Positions 2 to 7,253 of a stretch of DNA of 64,000 nt are shown here, in pieces. A program made the translations under genes and the position numbers. Below the pieces are notes generated by a model. The model was not told where the DNA came from and made no database searches. It worked only from the letters and a program-made list of their open reading frames with translations. Every line of letters begins with the position of its first letter. Position 1 is the first letter of the stretch. Origin of the DNA: Rhodothermales bacterium (GTDB taxonomy: Bacteria; Bacteroidota; Rhodothermia; Rhodothermales; UBA10348); contig JANQQV010000017.1 in the NCBI GenBank assembly GCA_028284865.1, positions 186,001 to 250,000 on the forward strand, in the 5' to 3' direction.

Positions 2-436
2 ATGGGCTTGTCCCGTCAGAAGTCCGAAGGTCTGCTGACAAAACTCATCATCGCGGCTACCGCCATGATCGTGTTGGGATACCCGGGAGAGGGCGCGGCA
101 GAAGCCAGCTCGATCATCCTCTGGGGTGTTCTCTCAACGATCCCATTTGCCTACATCCTCTACGTCCTTTGGGGCGAAGTGGGTCAGGTCATCAATGAGC
201 AGGGAGGACGTGTAGGCCTCCTTCTCAAGAATGCTCGCTGGTTGCTTCTGGCTACCTGGGGCTTCTACCCGATCACCTACGGACTGCCTCTGCTTGGCGC
301 AGATGTAGGCCTCGTAGGCATGCAGATTGGATACGCTGTTGCTGATGTCCTTGCCAAGGCAGGCTTCGGTATCCTGATCTACATCATTGCCCGCAATAAG
401 TCGGAGCAAGACGGCTACTCCCTGGAGATTGCCTGA
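2..436 (+). CDS. Xanthorhodopsin-like microbial rhodopsin, C-terminal part (5' truncated by window)
   Basis: This is the C-terminal 144 residues of a retinal-binding seven-helix ion pump; helices A to C lie upstream of the window, so the Met at base 2 is internal. Helix G carries the Schiff-base lysine in DVLAKAGFG (K119 of this fragment, with the D115 counter-ion position). Helix F has the retinal-pocket W86 and Y89-P90. In helix E the pair W41-G42 aligns with W137-W138 of bacteriorhodopsin; glycine at the second position is the fenestration known from xanthorhodopsin (Gly156) that allows a carotenoid antenna to dock. Lycopene cyclase and retinal-forming Blh genes follow on the same strand. 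A pump is likely, but ion type cannot be judged without helix C. Confidence 0.93.
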   Translation: MGLSRQKSEGLLTKLIIAATAMIVLGYPGEGAAEASSIILWGVLSTIPFAYILYVLWGEVGQVINEQGGRVGLLLKNARWLLLATWGFYPITYGLPLLGADVGLVGMQIGYAVADVLAKAGFGILIYIIARNKSEQDGYSLEIA

Positions 437-449
437 GTTTGATGGATTG

Positions 450-480
450 TTCGGCGGGCGGCCGCAGGCCGCCCGCCGAA
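450..480 (+). terminator. Perfect GC-rich hairpin between rhodopsin and lycopene cyclase genes
   Basis: A 14-bp perfect inverted repeat (450-463 with 467-480) with a 3-base loop begins 13 bases after the rhodopsin stop. The following bases are only mildly T-rich (ttcctttatc), so it may be a leaky terminator or an mRNA 3' stabiliser. Either would lower expression of the carotenoid genes relative to the rhodopsin. Confidence 0.6.
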
Positions 481-500
481 TTCCTTTATCCCCCGCAACC

Positions 501-1256
501 ATGTCCTACCTACAGTTCCACGTCGTTTTTACGATTCCGGCCCTCATTCTCATGCGGGCCATCCAGCCAAGCATCGTCCTGTCGGACCGGCGAAAAGCCA
601 ACCTTTCCGTAGGCGCGATTGCCGTGATTGCATTCCTGTACACGACGCCCTGGGACAACTTCCTGGTCGCCAACAACATCTGGTACTACGGTACCGATCG
701 GGTCATCGGAATCATCGGGCACGTCCCCTACGAGGAGTATGCCTTCTTCCTGATCCAGACCTTCATCACCGGGCTGTGGACCTTCTGGCTCCTGCATCGC
801 CCGGGCGTTCGCTGGTTCGACTCACCGGCTTCCCAGATAGCGCGATTCAATGGAACAGGACTGTTCCTGTTTGCCACCATCGTTGGCTTCTGGTTGCTGG
901 AAGGAACGTCTACGATGTACATGGGACTTATCGTCGCGTGGGCTGCACCCGTTCTGGCCCTTCAATGGGTCGTCGGTGGGCATCATCTCTGGAAGATGAA
1001 GAAGCTCGTTCTGGCGGCGTTCATCCCACCGTCCATCTATCTGTGTATCGCCGATGCGATTGCCATCTGGAACGGCGTATGGGTCATTTCAGAAGAGACG
1101 TCGACCGGGGTCATGATTGGTGTGCTTCCGATCGAAGAAGCGTTGTTCTTCTTCGTGACAAACCTTCTGGTCGTCCAAGGGACGCTGCTGGCGGCGCATC
1201 AACTTCGCCACTCCAGACTGTCACCCCTTCGCAGACCATCCACCCATGTGGGCTGA
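501..1256 (+). CDS. Fused heterodimeric-type lycopene cyclase (CrtYc-CrtYd domains)
   Basis: A 251-residue membrane protein with two tandem lycopene cyclase domains. Each half carries the family's P-x-E-E motif in a hydrophobic segment: PYEEYAFFLIQT at 76-87 and PIEEALFFFVTN at 210-221. Enzymes of this type cyclise both ends of lycopene to beta-carotene in the cytoplasmic membrane. The ATG at 501 (MSYLQFH) was chosen because an in-frame upstream extension would run through the intergenic hairpin. The gene overlaps the next one (Blh) by 11 bases, so translation is probably coupled. Beta-carotene would feed retinal synthesis and perhaps antenna carotenoids. Confidence 0.92.
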   Translation: MSYLQFHVVFTIPALILMRAIQPSIVLSDRRKANLSVGAIAVIAFLYTTPWDNFLVANNIWYYGTDRVIGIIGHVPYEEYAFFLIQTFITGLWTFWLLHRPGVRWFDSPASQIARFNGTGLFLFATIVGFWLLEGTSTMYMGLIVAWAAPVLALQWVVGGHHLWKMKKLVLAAFIPPSIYLCIADAIAIWNGVWVISEETSTGVMIGVLPIEEALFFFVTNLLVVQGTLLAAHQLRHSRLSPLRRPSTHVG

Positions 1257-2184
1257 GCGTGCTCCCACGCTGACCCTCACCGCCACGCTGGTCATCAGCG
1301 GGCTTTGGTGGGCAACTGGATTACCCACTGGATGGGTTTTGTTCATCCCCTGGGCACTCTCGGTTCTGTTGTTTGGCCTGCCACACGGCGCCGCTGACCA
1401 CGTCATTTGGGCTTCACTGCGACGAGAGCACGACCGATTCGTGCCGGTCATTGGACGCTATCTCCTGGTCATGGCCGTTTACGTAGCTGTCTGGTGGGTT
1501 TCCCCATCGATTGCGGTCGCCATTTTTCTGGGTATCACGATCTGGCACTGGGGCTCGGCTGACGCGACCCGATCGTTCGAACGAGCCGACGGTACCGTCA
1601 TGAACGCGCCCTGGATCGTGGCCTCGCTTTCTCGCGGGATCGTTCCCATGGTGGCTCCGCTCGCCTTTTACGCCGACGTGGTTGCCGGGATTATCGCGGG
1701 ATTGTCCTCGGATCTTGCGCAGGCCGACGTGATGACCTGGATTCCGGAAACGAACGCCATCCTGGCCTTCGTTTTAGCGTCCCAGGTCATTTGGCTGGCT
1801 ACGATGTATCGAATCGGGGCCCCATTCCGGACCGAGATGCTGGAAACGTTGCTGAATACGCTGCTTCTGGTTGCCGTCCACCCATTGGTCAGCGTCGGCG
1901 TTTATTTCACCTTCTGGCATGCCTGGCATCACGATCGACGCTTGTCAAACTGGTATGCCAATGCCCAAAATGGTATTCAGAGGCGTTCAAAGCGTCGTGA
2001 CCAGCTCGGCATCATGGCGGTTACCCTCATCGGAATGGTGGCGCTCGTCATGGCCATGCCGCCTGTTCTCACTACCCTGTCCATCTACCTGATAGCCATC
2101 TCCATCCTGACCATGCCGCACATGATCGTGGTCTGGTTAATGGATCGCCGATACGCTTCCATTGTCAACCAGCGCGCAGGCTGA
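1246..2184 (+). CDS. blh: Brp/Blh family beta-carotene 15,15'-dioxygenase
   Basis: A 312-residue integral membrane protein of the Brp/Blh family, which cleaves beta-carotene into two molecules of retinal. Characteristic histidines are present: GLPHGAADH (H47, H52), FWHAWHHDRR (H225, H228, H229) and a C-terminal TMPHMIVVW motif; in this family such histidines hold the catalytic iron. The start overlaps the 3' end of the lycopene cyclase gene. Together with the upstream rhodopsin this forms a complete photoheterotrophy cassette downstream of lycopene. The gene converges with a histidine kinase gene whose stop lies only 5 bases away. Confidence 0.93.
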   Translation: MWAERAPTLTLTATLVISGLWWATGLPTGWVLFIPWALSVLLFGLPHGAADHVIWASLRREHDRFVPVIGRYLLVMAVYVAVWWVSPSIAVAIFLGITIWHWGSADATRSFERADGTVMNAPWIVASLSRGIVPMVAPLAFYADVVAGIIAGLSSDLAQADVMTWIPETNAILAFVLASQVIWLATMYRIGAPFRTEMLETLLNTLLLVAVHPLVSVGVYFTFWHAWHHDRRLSNWYANAQNGIQRRSKRRDQLGIMAVTLIGMVALVMAMPPVLTTLSIYLIAISILTMPHMIVVWLMDRRYASIVNQRAG

Positions 2185-2189
2185 GGCTG

Positions 2190-3569
2190 TCAGCTGACGG
2201 GCAGGTGAATGCGGAAACGCGTCTTGCCGGGCTCGGACTCCACTTTGATTCCACCCTGGTGCTGATCGACGATGATCCGGTGCACGATGTCGAGGCCCAT
2301 CCCGGTGCCTTCTCCAACATCTTTGGTCGAGTAGAACGGCTCGAATATGTGGGGGAGGATGTCTTCGGGGATACCACTGCCGTTGTCCTCTATACAGATC
2401 TCGACCATCGGTCCCAGCGGTCCAGCAGCCAGGCGTAACGCGCCTCCATCCTGCATGGCATCAATGGCATTGTCGATGAGATTGGTCCAGACCTGGTTCA
2501 ATTCTCCTGGAAAACCGTGAACGGTTGGCAATTCGTCGGCGATGGCCCACTCGGTAGAGATGTTCTTCCCTTTGAGCTTGTGTCCGAGCATGGTGACCGT
2601 GCTGTTCAGACCGGCTTCAATGTCCACCGGCTGCTTGTCTGCCGAACGGTCCATGTGGGAGTAGGTCTTGATTGATCCGACCAACTCAGAGATCCGATCA
2701 CTGGCGGCATGGAGCTCGCCAATGAGCCTCGTTGCTGTTGTGCTCTGCTGGATCCAGGCCAGTACATCCGCGAGCGCATTTTCGGGGATGTCGTTCGTTG
2801 AGGAATCCAGGTGATGTACGGTGATGCCCGCCTCACTGAGCTGGGGAGCGATCCTCCACGCGTCTTCGATGTCGTGGTCCTCCAGCCAGTCAAGGAGTTC
2901 GTCCTCCCGGTCAGCCAACTCGAGAGTGGAAAGGCGCTCTTCGTGATCGGCCAGCGTGCAGGCATGAGCTACTGGCATCACCGAATCCGGAGTCAATCCG
3001 TGCCCGACCAGACGGCCGACCGTATTCGGCAGTGCATCCATCAGCTCTTTCAATTCCGCGGCCGCGCGGCGCGCGGCCGCGGCAGGGTTATTCAATTCGT
3101 GAGCCAGACCGGCAGACAACTTGCCGAGCGCTTGCATCTTGTCGGCTTGTTGATCCACGCGTTCCACATTGCGGACGCGGTCAGACATCCGGGCAACAAG
3201 TCGTTGGCCCAACTGAGGGAGGCGATATAGGACGTCCGGAAACCGATCGCGATCGAGGAATCCTACCCGCGTTGTCTCTACGATTTCACTGCGACCCTCA
3301 TAGGTCTTCATCCGGCTGTAGGGCAGCAGCCCCGTGATCGTCCCGGGATCAAGCTGAGCAAAAAAGCGCCAGCCGCTCTTGTGAGGCACGAAGATGCGCA
3401 TCATGCCCGAGAGGACGATCATCATTTGCTCGGCCGGGTCACCGGGCTTGAATGGCTCCGATCCCGGCTCAAAGACGCGTTCTTCAAATTGCACGGCCAG
3501 CCACTCTAGGTCTTCCTCGGGCAGGTCGGCGAATTCGCTGACGATCTTCAGATCGCTTACAGAAATCAT
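2190..3569 (-). CDS. Sensor histidine kinase with N-terminal cyclic-nucleotide-binding-like domain
   Basis: A soluble 459-residue kinase without membrane segments. Residues about 10-125 resemble a CRP-like cNMP-binding domain. The H-box is LAHELNNPAAAA (H157). The ATPase domain has the N-box NLIDNAIDAM (363-372), G1 DNGSGIP (395-401), an F-box FEPFYSTK and G2 GTGMGLD (421-427). The start MISVSDLK was chosen because it lies just past the stop of the upstream antiporter gene; in-frame starts at 3593 and 3629 would overlap that gene. It is the last gene of a three-gene operon whose first gene carries a receiver domain, so that REC is a plausible phosphoryl acceptor. Confidence 0.9.
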   Translation of the reverse strand: MISVSDLKIVSEFADLPEEDLEWLAVQFEERVFEPGSEPFKPGDPAEQMMIVLSGMMRIFVPHKSGWRFFAQLDPGTITGLLPYSRMKTYEGRSEIVETTRVGFLDRDRFPDVLYRLPQLGQRLVARMSDRVRNVERVDQQADKMQALGKLSAGLAHELNNPAAAARRAAAELKELMDALPNTVGRLVGHGLTPDSVMPVAHACTLADHEERLSTLELADREDELLDWLEDHDIEDAWRIAPQLSEAGITVHHLDSSTNDIPENALADVLAWIQQSTTATRLIGELHAASDRISELVGSIKTYSHMDRSADKQPVDIEAGLNSTVTMLGHKLKGKNISTEWAIADELPTVHGFPGELNQVWTNLIDNAIDAMQDGGALRLAAGPLGPMVEICIEDNGSGIPEDILPHIFEPFYSTKDVGEGTGMGLDIVHRIIVDQHQGGIKVESEPGKTRFRIHLPVS

Positions 3570-3573
3570 GGGT

Positions 3574-5601
3574 TCAACGCACGTATTGGTCATCAATGAA
3601 ACACCAGCCCCACGTTTCACCCGGTTCAAGTGACCGGATGATCGGATGGCCTGTTTCCTCGAAGTGTTTGCGCGCGTGCTGATTCTTTGACGAATCGCAG
3701 CATCCGACGTGACCGCAGGTCATGCACACACGCAAATGCACCCATTCGTCTCCGAGCTCCACACATTGAGGACAGACATCCGTGGCCTCTGGCACCACAA
3801 TCATTCGTGTGTTTCCATGATCACATGTTTCCTTGTGAGGATCCAGAATGATGGCTCCCTCGGGCGGGGTGACGAGAATGTCCTCGTAATCGTGCGAACG
3901 AATGTGGTCGACAATGTCGTCAATGTCCTCTACCGGCACTTCCCGATCCTTCAACGTCTGGGCCAGCAGCTGGACGATGGCTTCGAGCTCGTCCACTATA
4001 ACGCAATCGACGCCCTCTTCGTGGAGCGATTTCACATCTGATTTCCGGGGCGAACGCACAACAATGTGCATGTCCGGATTCATCTGGCGGGCGACCATGG
4101 CGACGCGATGGGTCATCCCGGGATTGTCATCGGCAATGATCAGCGTGCGGGCGGATCCAACGTGCGCAAGGTTCAGGGTATGCTGCTTTGCATAGTCACC
4201 TCGGAGGACATGAACGCCTTGCTCTTCGGCTTCCGTCGCACCTTCCGGGCTCAACGTCAGCACGACAAACGGGATGTCGAATGATCGCAACGAACGAACC
4301 AGGTACTGCGCCGACATGCCGTAACCGGCAATGACGACATGATCGGACATGACCGGAATATGCCCATGAACCTCGGGCTCACTGTCTTCAGACGCCGAGG
4401 TATCTGCTTCACCATCCATCATGCGATCGCGAACTTTCATGCCCAGCGTATGCAACATGGGCGTCATGATCATGACAATGACCGTAGCGGCGATGAAGGT
4501 CTGGGACCCCGTACCTTCCATGCCGGCAGGGAAGAGGCCGGCTTCGCGGCCCGCCCGTTCAAGTACGAAGGAGAATTCCCCGATTTGAGCCAGCATCAAC
4601 CCTGAGGCCAGCGCAATCGGCATGGGATAGCCCAAAATTCGAAGGCTGATTCCTGTGGTGACAATCTTGATGAGCAGGACGAGCACAACGATCCCGAGCA
4701 CCAGCGGCAGGTTGCTGATCAGGAATCCGACATCCAGCAGCATGCCAACGGAAACGAAAAACGTAGCGCTGAACAGGATTTGCAGGGGCATGATTTCGCC
4801 CATCGCGTGCTCGGAAAACTTGCTCTCCGATACCACGATACCAGCGAGGAACGCTCCGAGTGCCAGACTCACACCAGCCAGACTGGTCAGAAAGGCGGTA
4901 CCGAAACAGATTCCGATGACTGTGAGCAAGAAGAGTTCTGGCGAACAGGTTCGTGCCACTGCTTCCAGGAACCGTGGCATGATCCGACGGGCAACCAGTA
5001 GGACGGCCACAATGATGAAAGCTGCTTTTGCCAGCGCCCAGACGATGGCAAGCGAGCCGCCTCCTTGTCCGGACATGAGCGGGACCAGCAGCACCATCAC
5101 GATGATGGCGAGGTCCTGGAAAATGAGCAGTCCCAATCCCACTTTGCCGTGGTCTTCTTCCAGCTCTCCGCGGTCCGAGAGCAGCTTGAGGACAATGGCC
5201 GTGGAAGAGAGCGCGACCAGGAATCCGGTGAACAGACTGGCCTGCCAGGACACCCCGAATGCCATCAGGATGGCTACCGTGACGCCTGTAGCCAGTCCGA
5301 CCTGGAGGCCACCGCCGCCGAAAATCAGGCGTTTGATCCGAGACAGCTTTTCCAGACTGAACTCGATCCCGATAGTGAACAGGAGTAGTAGTACGCCCAC
5401 TTCTGCAGCCGCATCCACGATCTCCTTGTCTGATACAAGTCCGGTCGCCTCAGGGCCGATCAGAACACCGGCAATCAAGAAGCCGACGATCGGGATGATG
5501 CCGAGACGATAACAGATATAGGCGATGGCTGCACTGGCCAGAATGAGCAGTGCGACATCGGTGAAAAAGGGTGGCGCAGCACCCGCAGCAAAAATCAGCA
5601 T
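3574..5601 (-). CDS. CPA2 (Kef-type) cation:proton antiporter with TrkA-N domain and C-terminal UBP-type zinc finger
   Basis: A 675-residue protein. Residues 10-390 are the multi-spanning CPA2 exchanger, with the family signature FQDLAIIVMVLL near 161-172. Residues about 418-540 form a TrkA-N/RCK nucleotide-binding domain starting VVIAGYGMSA. Residues about 590-675 are a UBP-type zinc finger with C610, C613, C626, C629, C634/C635, H642, H646 and H652. Kef antiporters export potassium in response to redox or electrophile cues through the RCK domain; the extra zinc finger is an unusual fusion. The gene begins 12 bases after the REC-reductase gene and is followed immediately by the kinase gene. 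Partner and gating ligand are not known from the sequence. Confidence 0.92.
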   Translation of the reverse strand: MLIFAAGAAPPFFTDVALLILASAAIAYICYRLGIIPIVGFLIAGVLIGPEATGLVSDKEIVDAAAEVGVLLLLFTIGIEFSLEKLSRIKRLIFGGGGLQVGLATGVTVAILMAFGVSWQASLFTGFLVALSSTAIVLKLLSDRGELEEDHGKVGLGLLIFQDLAIIVMVLLVPLMSGQGGGSLAIVWALAKAAFIIVAVLLVARRIMPRFLEAVARTCSPELFLLTVIGICFGTAFLTSLAGVSLALGAFLAGIVVSESKFSEHAMGEIMPLQILFSATFFVSVGMLLDVGFLISNLPLVLGIVVLVLLIKIVTTGISLRILGYPMPIALASGLMLAQIGEFSFVLERAGREAGLFPAGMEGTGSQTFIAATVIVMIMTPMLHTLGMKVRDRMMDGEADTSASEDSEPEVHGHIPVMSDHVVIAGYGMSAQYLVRSLRSFDIPFVVLTLSPEGATEAEEQGVHVLRGDYAKQHTLNLAHVGSARTLIIADDNPGMTHRVAMVARQMNPDMHIVVRSPRKSDVKSLHEEGVDCVIVDELEAIVQLLAQTLKDREVPVEDIDDIVDHIRSHDYEDILVTPPEGAIILDPHKETCDHGNTRMIVVPEATDVCPQCVELGDEWVHLRVCMTCGHVGCCDSSKNQHARKHFEETGHPIIRSLEPGETWGWCFIDDQYVR

Positions 5602-5612
5602 GGATCTGGGAA

Positions 5613-7253
5613 TCAGAGACTGGCCAGGTGGCGATGGACGAAGTGAACGGAAACGGATCCTTCACCGACCGCACTCGCCACGCGCTTGACCGATTCATGG
5701 CGCACGTCTCCGGCAGCAAATATGCCGGGGACGTTGGTTTCGAGCAGCCAGGGATCCCGCTCCAGAGGCCAGTCCTTGAGATGCTCGTCTCGCAGATCGG
5801 GACCGGTGAGTACGAAGCCTTGCTCGTCGAGGGCAATCAGATCTCGCAGCCAGTCGGTACGCGGAACGGCCCCGATGAAGACAAAGAGCCAGGTGGAAGG
5901 GACGTCTTCCTCCTCTCCTGACGTGCGATTGCGAAGGGTCAGGGTGTCGAGGCGACCTGAGCCTTTGCAGGCGACAATTTCGGTGTGCAAGCGGACCTCG
6001 ATGTTCTCGGTATCATGGATCCGGTCAACGAGGTATTGCGACATCTTGGCTTCGAGCGAGTCGCCCCGGACCAGCATCACCACTTTGGCTGCCTTTTCTG
6101 CGAAGCGCATGGCAGCTTGGCCCGCTGAGTTACCCGCGCCGACGGTGTAGACGACATCACCTGCGCAGTTGTCCACTTCGGTCAGTGCAGCGCCGTAATA
6201 CACGCCCTGGTCGGTGTATTTCTCGGCGTTTTCGGCGGGCAGCATGCGCCAGGATACGCCCATCGACAGCATCAGCGCATGGCAAGAAATGCGTGTACCA
6301 TCATCAAGGATGAGGTGGCGGTAAGGACCCTCCAGCTCGACCGATGCTACGCTACGCGGCGTCAACATCTCGACGCCGAATTTTCGCGCCTGTGCGACGG
6401 CCCGTCCGGCGAGTTCGCTTCCGGAGAGTCCAGCCGGGAATCCGAGGTAGTTTTCAATACGCGATGAGGTCCCTGCCTGTCCCCCAGGTGCTGATCCTTC
6501 GATCAATACGGTAGACAACCCTTCCGAGCCTCCATAGACGGCCGTCGCCAGCCCTGCGGGACCACCTCCGATGATGGCCAGATCATAGAATTCGTTGCCT
6601 GCTTCAACTTGAAGGCCCACTTGCCCGGCAAGCTCCTTTTCAGAAGGATTGCACACGCGGGTCCCATTCTCCAGGATCAAGAGCGGAATATCGTCATCAC
6701 CCCGAAGCTCCTTGGCTTCTTCTGATGATTCGATGTCGAGGAATGTGTAGGGGACGAGGTTGCGGGCAAGGAAGTCGCGCAGCTGGTGACTGCGTGCTGA
6801 CCAGCGGTCCGCGATCAGTTTGATGCCTTCAAATCCCGGGCGAAAAAGCAATTGCCAGTCATCCAGCAAACCATCGATGATGGGGTAGAGTTTGTCTTCT
6901 GGCGGGTCCCAGGGTTTGACGAAGTAGTAATCGACGTGGGATGCGTTGATGGCGCTGATGGCGGCTTCCGTGTCGGAATAGGCCGTCAGGAGAGCCCGTT
7001 TGGCAGCGGGAAACCTTTCCCTCGCTCTGGTCAGGAATTCCACTCCGTTCATGGACGGCATGCGCTGATCAGAAAGCAGCAAGGATACCGTACCGCCGCG
7101 CTCCTTCACCGCGTCCAGGGCCTCCAGGGCTTCAGCGCCGGAGGCGGCGCGCATGATGCGATAGTCTTTTCCGTATTGGCGGCGAAGGTCTCGGGCAATG
7201 GAAGCAAGGACCTGAGGGTCATCGTCCACCGTCAGGATGATGGGTGTAGCCAT
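5613..7253 (-). CDS. Fused response regulator / thioredoxin-reductase-like FAD oxidoreductase
   Basis: A 546-residue fusion. Residues 4-125 are a receiver domain (acidic pocket D10-D12, phospho-acceptor D62, T90, K113). Residues about 145-210 look like a thioredoxin/glutaredoxin-fold segment. Residues 222-546 are a TrxR-like pyridine-nucleotide oxidoreductase with GGGPAG (FAD, 229-234), GAGNSAG (NAD(P)H, 372-378) and GIFAAGD (510-516). The CxxC disulfide normally just before the NAD(P)H motif is missing: the aligned segment is GVYYGAAL (350-357). Electron flow must therefore differ from classical thioredoxin reductase. It heads the operon with the antiporter and kinase, suggesting phosphorylation-controlled redox chemistry linked to ion flux. 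Confidence 0.92.
   Translation of the reverse strand: MATPIILTVDDDPQVLASIARDLRRQYGKDYRIMRAASGAEALEALDAVKERGGTVSLLLSDQRMPSMNGVEFLTRARERFPAAKRALLTAYSDTEAAISAINASHVDYYFVKPWDPPEDKLYPIIDGLLDDWQLLFRPGFEGIKLIADRWSARSHQLRDFLARNLVPYTFLDIESSEEAKELRGDDDIPLLILENGTRVCNPSEKELAGQVGLQVEAGNEFYDLAIIGGGPAGLATAVYGGSEGLSTVLIEGSAPGGQAGTSSRIENYLGFPAGLSGSELAGRAVAQARKFGVEMLTPRSVASVELEGPYRHLILDDGTRISCHALMLSMGVSWRMLPAENAEKYTDQGVYYGAALTEVDNCAGDVVYTVGAGNSAGQAAMRFAEKAAKVVMLVRGDSLEAKMSQYLVDRIHDTENIEVRLHTEIVACKGSGRLDTLTLRNRTSGEEEDVPSTWLFVFIGAVPRTDWLRDLIALDEQGFVLTGPDLRDEHLKDWPLERDPWLLETNVPGIFAAGDVRHESVKRVASAVGEGSVSVHFVHRHLASL

Follow-up and report, generated by a model that had tools for sequence, protein, structure and literature searches.

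A ubiquitin-reader-type zinc finger fused to a KefC-like exchanger, and the redox-linked operon in which it occurs

The window, which is the whole stretch of 64,000 nucleotides analysed here, encodes a cation/proton exchanger of the CPA2 family whose C-terminus carries a zinc finger of the type that reads ubiquitin in eukaryotes (ZnF-UBP). The exchanger lies between genes for a flavoprotein and a sensor kinase, all on the minus strand. The features, in positions of the window, are as follows.

2190..3569, minus strand: sensor histidine kinase with an N-terminal CRP-like (cNMP_binding) domain, by Pfam; its ATG lies 4 bp after the exchanger stop
3574..5601, minus strand: CPA2 (KefC-like) cation/proton exchanger with the C-terminal finger, 675 aa, by Pfam and by phmmer to KefC
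3577..3825, minus strand: ZnF-UBP domain, exchanger residues 593-675, by PF02148 and by phmmer to 2IDA; ligands conserved in 59 fingers
3994..4338, minus strand: RCK/TrkA_N gating domain, residues 422-536 (PF02254, E 1e-18)
4447..5538, minus strand: transmembrane exchanger domain, residues 22-385 (PF00999, Na_H_Exchanger, E 4e-53)
5613..7253, minus strand: response-regulator/glutaredoxin-like/thioredoxin reductase (TrxR)-like flavoprotein, 546 aa, by Pfam; no CxxC, receiver residues D62 and K113 intact

The three genes form an operon in the order flavoprotein, 11-bp gap, exchanger, 4-bp gap, kinase, and the reading frame of the exchanger is uninterrupted across all three of its Pfam domains. 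A UBP-type finger fused to the C-terminus of a CPA2 exchanger had been proposed in the initial annotation of this DNA, and the Pfam assignment, the match to 2IDA and the uninterrupted frame all bear it out. Convergent with this operon, with 5 bp between the ends, are a rhodopsin gene, a lycopene cyclase and a Blh-type carotene dioxygenase (window 2-2184, plus strand; L160 5681-6436). The rhodopsin gene begins 320 bp before the window and, judged by eye, encodes in helix C the D-T-E motif typical of proton pumps.

The exchanger has the features that define Kef-type CPA2 proteins, i.e., the Na_H_Exchanger and TrkA_N domains together with the QD ion site of KefC. Its residues 17-532 match KefC (8BXG) at E 1e-59 in phmmer, and Q162-D163, corresponding to KefC Q155-D156, are kept in 44/44 aligned exchangers. 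It is thus of the QD type and probably exchanges K+ for H+. When genome contigs were searched with the whole protein, the matches were mostly finger-less Kef proteins.

In E. coli, the RCK domains keep KefC shut, and full activity requires the flavoprotein KefF, which contacts these domains (PMC2920069, PMC11150392). This glutathione-gated K+ efflux system and the window share a QD motif, an RCK domain and a flavoprotein partner, the last assigned in the window by operon; however, the window exchanger has the finger in addition, and its partner is a receiver/TrxR-like enzyme with a kinase of its own instead of a KefF-type quinone reductase. The determinants of glutathione gating (the HALESDIEP loop, R416, R516 and N551) do not recur as a set: the loop is degenerate (KefC E262 is M267 here), R416 is kept as R436, and R516 and N551 fall outside the aligned part. 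Because HALESDIEP is not conserved, the gating of KefC is not transferable wholesale.

The finger matches zf-UBP (PF02148) over residues 610-674 (E 6e-14, 52.4 bits against a cut-off of 22.7; 57.3 bits by profile search of the genome), and its closest solved structure, far above chance, is 2IDA (phmmer E 2.4e-27). The protein in that entry, RPA1320, belongs to the same finger family, with 36 of 63 aligned residues identical; but it stands alone with no transporter fusion, and is described in the PDB only as a hypothetical protein, whereas the window finger is fused. Because AlphaFold predictions from few sequences (four for the finger, ten for the whole protein) were of low confidence (pLDDT 52 and 56), the fold is taken from homology to 2IDA. 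Every cysteine and histidine listed in the initial annotation is present, but its layout needed revision: alignment with 58 other bacterial fingers places the true start upstream, at C593-x-H595, and the end at the C-terminus of the protein, adds C667 and D670 as the residues completing the first zinc site, and leaves C634 spare. Alignment to eukaryotic fingers, not coordinates, implies three zinc sites (C593/H595/C667/D670, C610/C613/C635/H642 and C626/C629/H646/H652), and all twelve ligand positions of these putative sites are filled in the window. C634 is invariant in 59/59 bacterial fingers and, since other residues fill all three inferred sites, is not needed for zinc.

With the eukaryotic domains (USP5, USP16, USP49, HDAC6) the window finger has in common the fold family, the order of zinc ligands and the groove Trp. 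It differs from them in a four-residue insert (the VHLR region), in the last ligand of site 1 (D670), which is Asp or His in bacterial fingers where eukaryotes have Cys, and in the lack of the Arg-Tyr clamp that holds the ubiquitin C-terminus. The CGRY clamp motif, whose Arg and Tyr are present in USP49 and HDAC6, reads Cys-Asp-Ser-Ser in the window; the positions of Ser637 and Ser638 are Ser-Ser in 16/16 fused fingers, and S638 is kept in 59/59 fingers. With this clamp missing, reading of ubiquitin or of a Gly-Gly tail in the eukaryotic manner is not supported, and neither operon neighbour, flavoprotein or kinase, ends in Gly-Gly; we set that reading aside. A search of the finger's own genome with the ubiquitin profile PF00240 returned no match, but carries no weight, as the control profiles likewise matched nowhere. 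We file the finger as a ZnF-UBP domain and not as a ubiquitin reader.

Absence of the eukaryotic clamp leaves room for a finger that, its clamp re-built, binds the free C-terminus of one specific partner in a eukaryotic-type groove. In bacterial fingers W620, the groove Trp, and a bacteria-specific Arg (R624) are invariant or nearly so, and the flavoprotein offers a candidate tail, xHLAxL-COOH: 17/17 aligned flavoproteins of the order have their terminal Leu at one shared position, in most cases within HLAxL. We nevertheless regard such binding as improbable, given that Ser-Ser replaces the clamp Arg and Tyr in every fused finger, that the operon has no Gly-Gly tail, and that the flavoproteins of the finger-bearing sister order have a different tail (LADSN). 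The conserved tail itself is rejected as the ligand because it is retained where the exchanger has a glutaredoxin-like domain and no finger.

Across the order, zf-UBP scores above its cut-off in 18 of 114 genomes, and in 14 of these, the window's included, the finger is encoded downstream of the exchanger and RCK domains without a break in the reading frame (the frame of G053 begins inside the exchanger because the contig starts there). The same fusion, with ~50% identity over the whole protein, is found on two Deinococcus plasmids. A sequencing frameshift revealing the finger as a separate gene had been named initially as grounds for rejecting the fusion. Many separate assemblies show the fused frame open, so this objection falls; a frameshift or assembly artefact is rejected, as the fusion recurs in 13 further genomes of the order and on both Deinococcus plasmids. 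In G058 and G059 a small gene of its own, immediately 3' of the exchanger, encodes the finger (degraded in G059); the finger of G070 is solitary, and that of G072 degenerate.

Among 114 genomes of the order, the finger and the orthologous flavoprotein (E below 1e-200) occur together in 13, the finger without the flavoprotein in 5 (i.e., 5 of the 18 finger genomes), the flavoprotein without the finger in 4, and neither in 92. This co-occurrence has a Fisher p of 4e-10, a value uncorrected for phylogeny and optimistic because the species counted are related. In the four genomes with the flavoprotein only, the end of the exchanger comprises a TrkA_C-like region plus a glutaredoxin-like domain bearing WC-x-LT; in two more genomes the exchanger likewise has a glutaredoxin-like domain, while the operon also encodes the finger on its own. 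This version of the same exchanger was read in six relatives (L131, L132, L133, L135, L042 and L044; motif WC[PAL]LT), of which L042 and L044 have it beside a separate finger gene. In a maximum-likelihood tree of the exchanger part, all 22 exchangers bearing a finger or a glutaredoxin-like domain form one clade with support of 100/100, and the finger-less paralogues, which are also present in most genomes, fall outside it. By parsimony on this tree the swap of finger and glutaredoxin-like domain requires one exchange; a clade of the finger-bearing exchangers that excludes the glutaredoxin-bearing ones was not recovered, nor was it rejected (p-AU 0.205).

If the finger served only to cap the RCK domain, stabilising its structure or the dimer without any partner, fused exchangers could occur in genomes that have no orthologous flavoprotein, as they do in G004, G014 and G076. 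(On the two Deinococcus fusion plasmids the flavoprotein was not found; one Deinococcus strain has a TrxR-like relative on another plasmid.) Such a cap is nonetheless quite unlikely: the WVHLR and CCDSS motifs, E662 and W664 are conserved equally in stand-alone and fused fingers, the finger co-occurs with the flavoprotein, and in the sister order it turns up again next to another exchanger.

That sister order (f18) was read at 14 kb around ten finger loci from nine genomes. At 10/10 loci a different RCK exchanger, 25% identical to the window's, is encoded immediately upstream of a finger that is a gene of its own; at 5/10 a DsbA-like CPYS protein is encoded between the two, and at 7/10 the kinase and flavoprotein come after. 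The flavoprotein is near the finger in 3/10 of more distant members of the phylum (L084, L087 and L088); in Streptomyces and Tsukamurella the finger adjoins this pair of flavoprotein and kinase, in Rhodococcus it adjoins trxA and a TrxR-like enzyme, and in many records of plasmids of other phyla it has a TrxR-like enzyme next to it. Many stand-alone fingers of other bacteria have neither partner nearby, and the flavoprotein-kinase pair is also seen without finger or exchanger. The initial view of bacterial fingers as mostly stand-alone and of unknown role thus holds in that stand-alone copies exist, but it overlooked their repeated position beside the same flavoprotein and kinase. The likely meaning of the finger is read from the redox operon, which that annotation missed; an operon neighbour, which it did suggest, is the likeliest partner of the finger.

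The enzymes of this operon depart from their canonical relatives. The flavoprotein scores 197.9 bits against TIGR01292, below the cut-off of 343, and its CxxC site reads GVYYGAALTE in the window, with CxxC kept in 0/27 orthologues; thioredoxin reduction is rejected for want of this motif. Its middle part (~138-215), which is called glutaredoxin-like from its resemblance to the glutaredoxin domain of L042 and not from a Pfam match, has RWS- or YSP-type residues and no cysteine in the active-site stretch. With both the CxxC and this cysteine missing, a classical dithiol relay is not intact. In the kinase, the H-box (G-L-A-H-E-L-N-N-P or near) keeps its phospho-acceptor His in 23/23 aligned sequences. 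Cyclic-nucleotide binders carry a canonical phosphate-binding cassette, GE..R, and because a conserved (S/T)GxLPxSRM-like motif stands in its place in the cNMP-like domain of the 23 aligned kinases, a cyclic nucleotide may be the wrong ligand. Canonical cAMP sensing lacks its required motif and is rejected; the ligand is probably not cAMP.

Could the finger itself be the sensor? The main alternative that we consider, which is compatible with docking of a partner, holds that oxidation of its cysteines, C634 first, frees zinc or forms a mixed disulfide and thereby alters RCK gating, the flavoprotein or glutaredoxin-like partners serving only to reset the finger. C634, beside the ligand C635, is invariant in 59/59 fingers though seven other cysteines suffice for the inferred sites, and thioredoxin-fold proteins (the DsbA-like CPYS protein, trxA, glutaredoxin-like domains) recur beside the finger. 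Against this, the other cysteines of the finger all look, in alignment, like structural zinc ligands, CxxC is missing from 27/27 flavoprotein orthologues, and the glutaredoxin-like part has no cysteine in its active-site stretch. We think direct sensing rather unlikely; of the zinc/thiol redox sensor that the initial annotation suggested might gate the exchanger, a redox or thiol role is plausible, whereas sensing by the finger itself is kept only as a rival.

The explanation that we tentatively prefer, while granting that it could well prove wrong, is that the finger acts as an adaptor that docks the exchanger onto a redox-linked two-component module made up of its operon neighbours, and does not read ubiquitin or Gly-Gly tails. 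The kinase, through its CRP-like input domain, would phosphorylate the receiver of the flavoprotein; the flavoprotein, phosphorylated and/or reduced by NAD(P)H, would bind the cytoplasmic side of the exchanger via the finger; and, once bound, it would shift the RCK gating ring much as KefF activates KefC. The operon flavoprotein would thus take the role of KefF and dock at the finger (at the glutaredoxin-like domain in relatives), and the invariant spare C634 may make this docking thiol-sensitive. In favour of this reading are the tight operon, the co-occurrence of finger and flavoprotein, the swap of finger and glutaredoxin-like domain within a single exchanger clade, the loci of the sister order and of Streptomyces, Tsukamurella and Rhodococcus, and the precedent of KefF. 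Counting against it are the five finger genomes that lack the orthologous flavoprotein and the two Deinococcus plasmids on which it was not found, the stand-alone fingers with neither partner close by, the flavoprotein-kinase pairs that have no finger or exchanger, and the divergent HALESDIEP loop. A broader version is possible but more doubtful, in which the ubiquitin-reader-type finger is an exchangeable plug, replaceable by a glutaredoxin-like domain, that couples an RCK gate to a phospho-controlled, CxxC-less flavoprotein, such that a two-component redox switch would set ion flux.

Bacterial ZF-UBP domains were reportedly placed by Burroughs, Iyer and Aravind in 2011 (Mol Biosyst) in a proposed cyclic-nucleotide-dependent redox-signalling system unrelated to ubiquitin, and their module is said to group the finger with a TrxR-like enzyme and cNMP-domain proteins; PMC4506424 cites the paper by title. 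We file the present system as a variant of that proposal. The differences here are the fusion of the finger to a CPA2 exchanger (or, in relatives, a glutaredoxin-like domain in its stead), a cNMP domain with no canonical cassette, and a TrxR-like enzyme with no CxxC. In the open literature searched on the bacterial finger with redox or transporter partners, no description of the exchanger fusion was found, nor one of the swap between finger and glutaredoxin or of the absent CxxC and cNMP motifs.

To our knowledge, no bacterial relative of the ubiquitin-reading finger has a tested function, and the fusion ties the finger physically to a protein with an assayable activity. Natural experiments are at hand in fingers that are fused, split or replaced by a glutaredoxin-like domain, and in the different exchanger of the sister order. 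If the adaptor model is true, it would provide a Kef-like case in which a two-component redox enzyme sets ion and pH homeostasis, and a clue to what ZnF-UBP domains do outside the ubiquitin system.

In several phyla the flavoprotein family, with its receiver and cysteine-less glutaredoxin-like part, is found together with the kinase, even where there is no finger. In Nostoc edaphicum (L161 5001-10678), the flavoprotein gene and a gene for an ATP-binding, kinase-like protein flank that of a bestrophin-family channel, an arrangement hinting that the flavoprotein-kinase pair serves other ion channels too.
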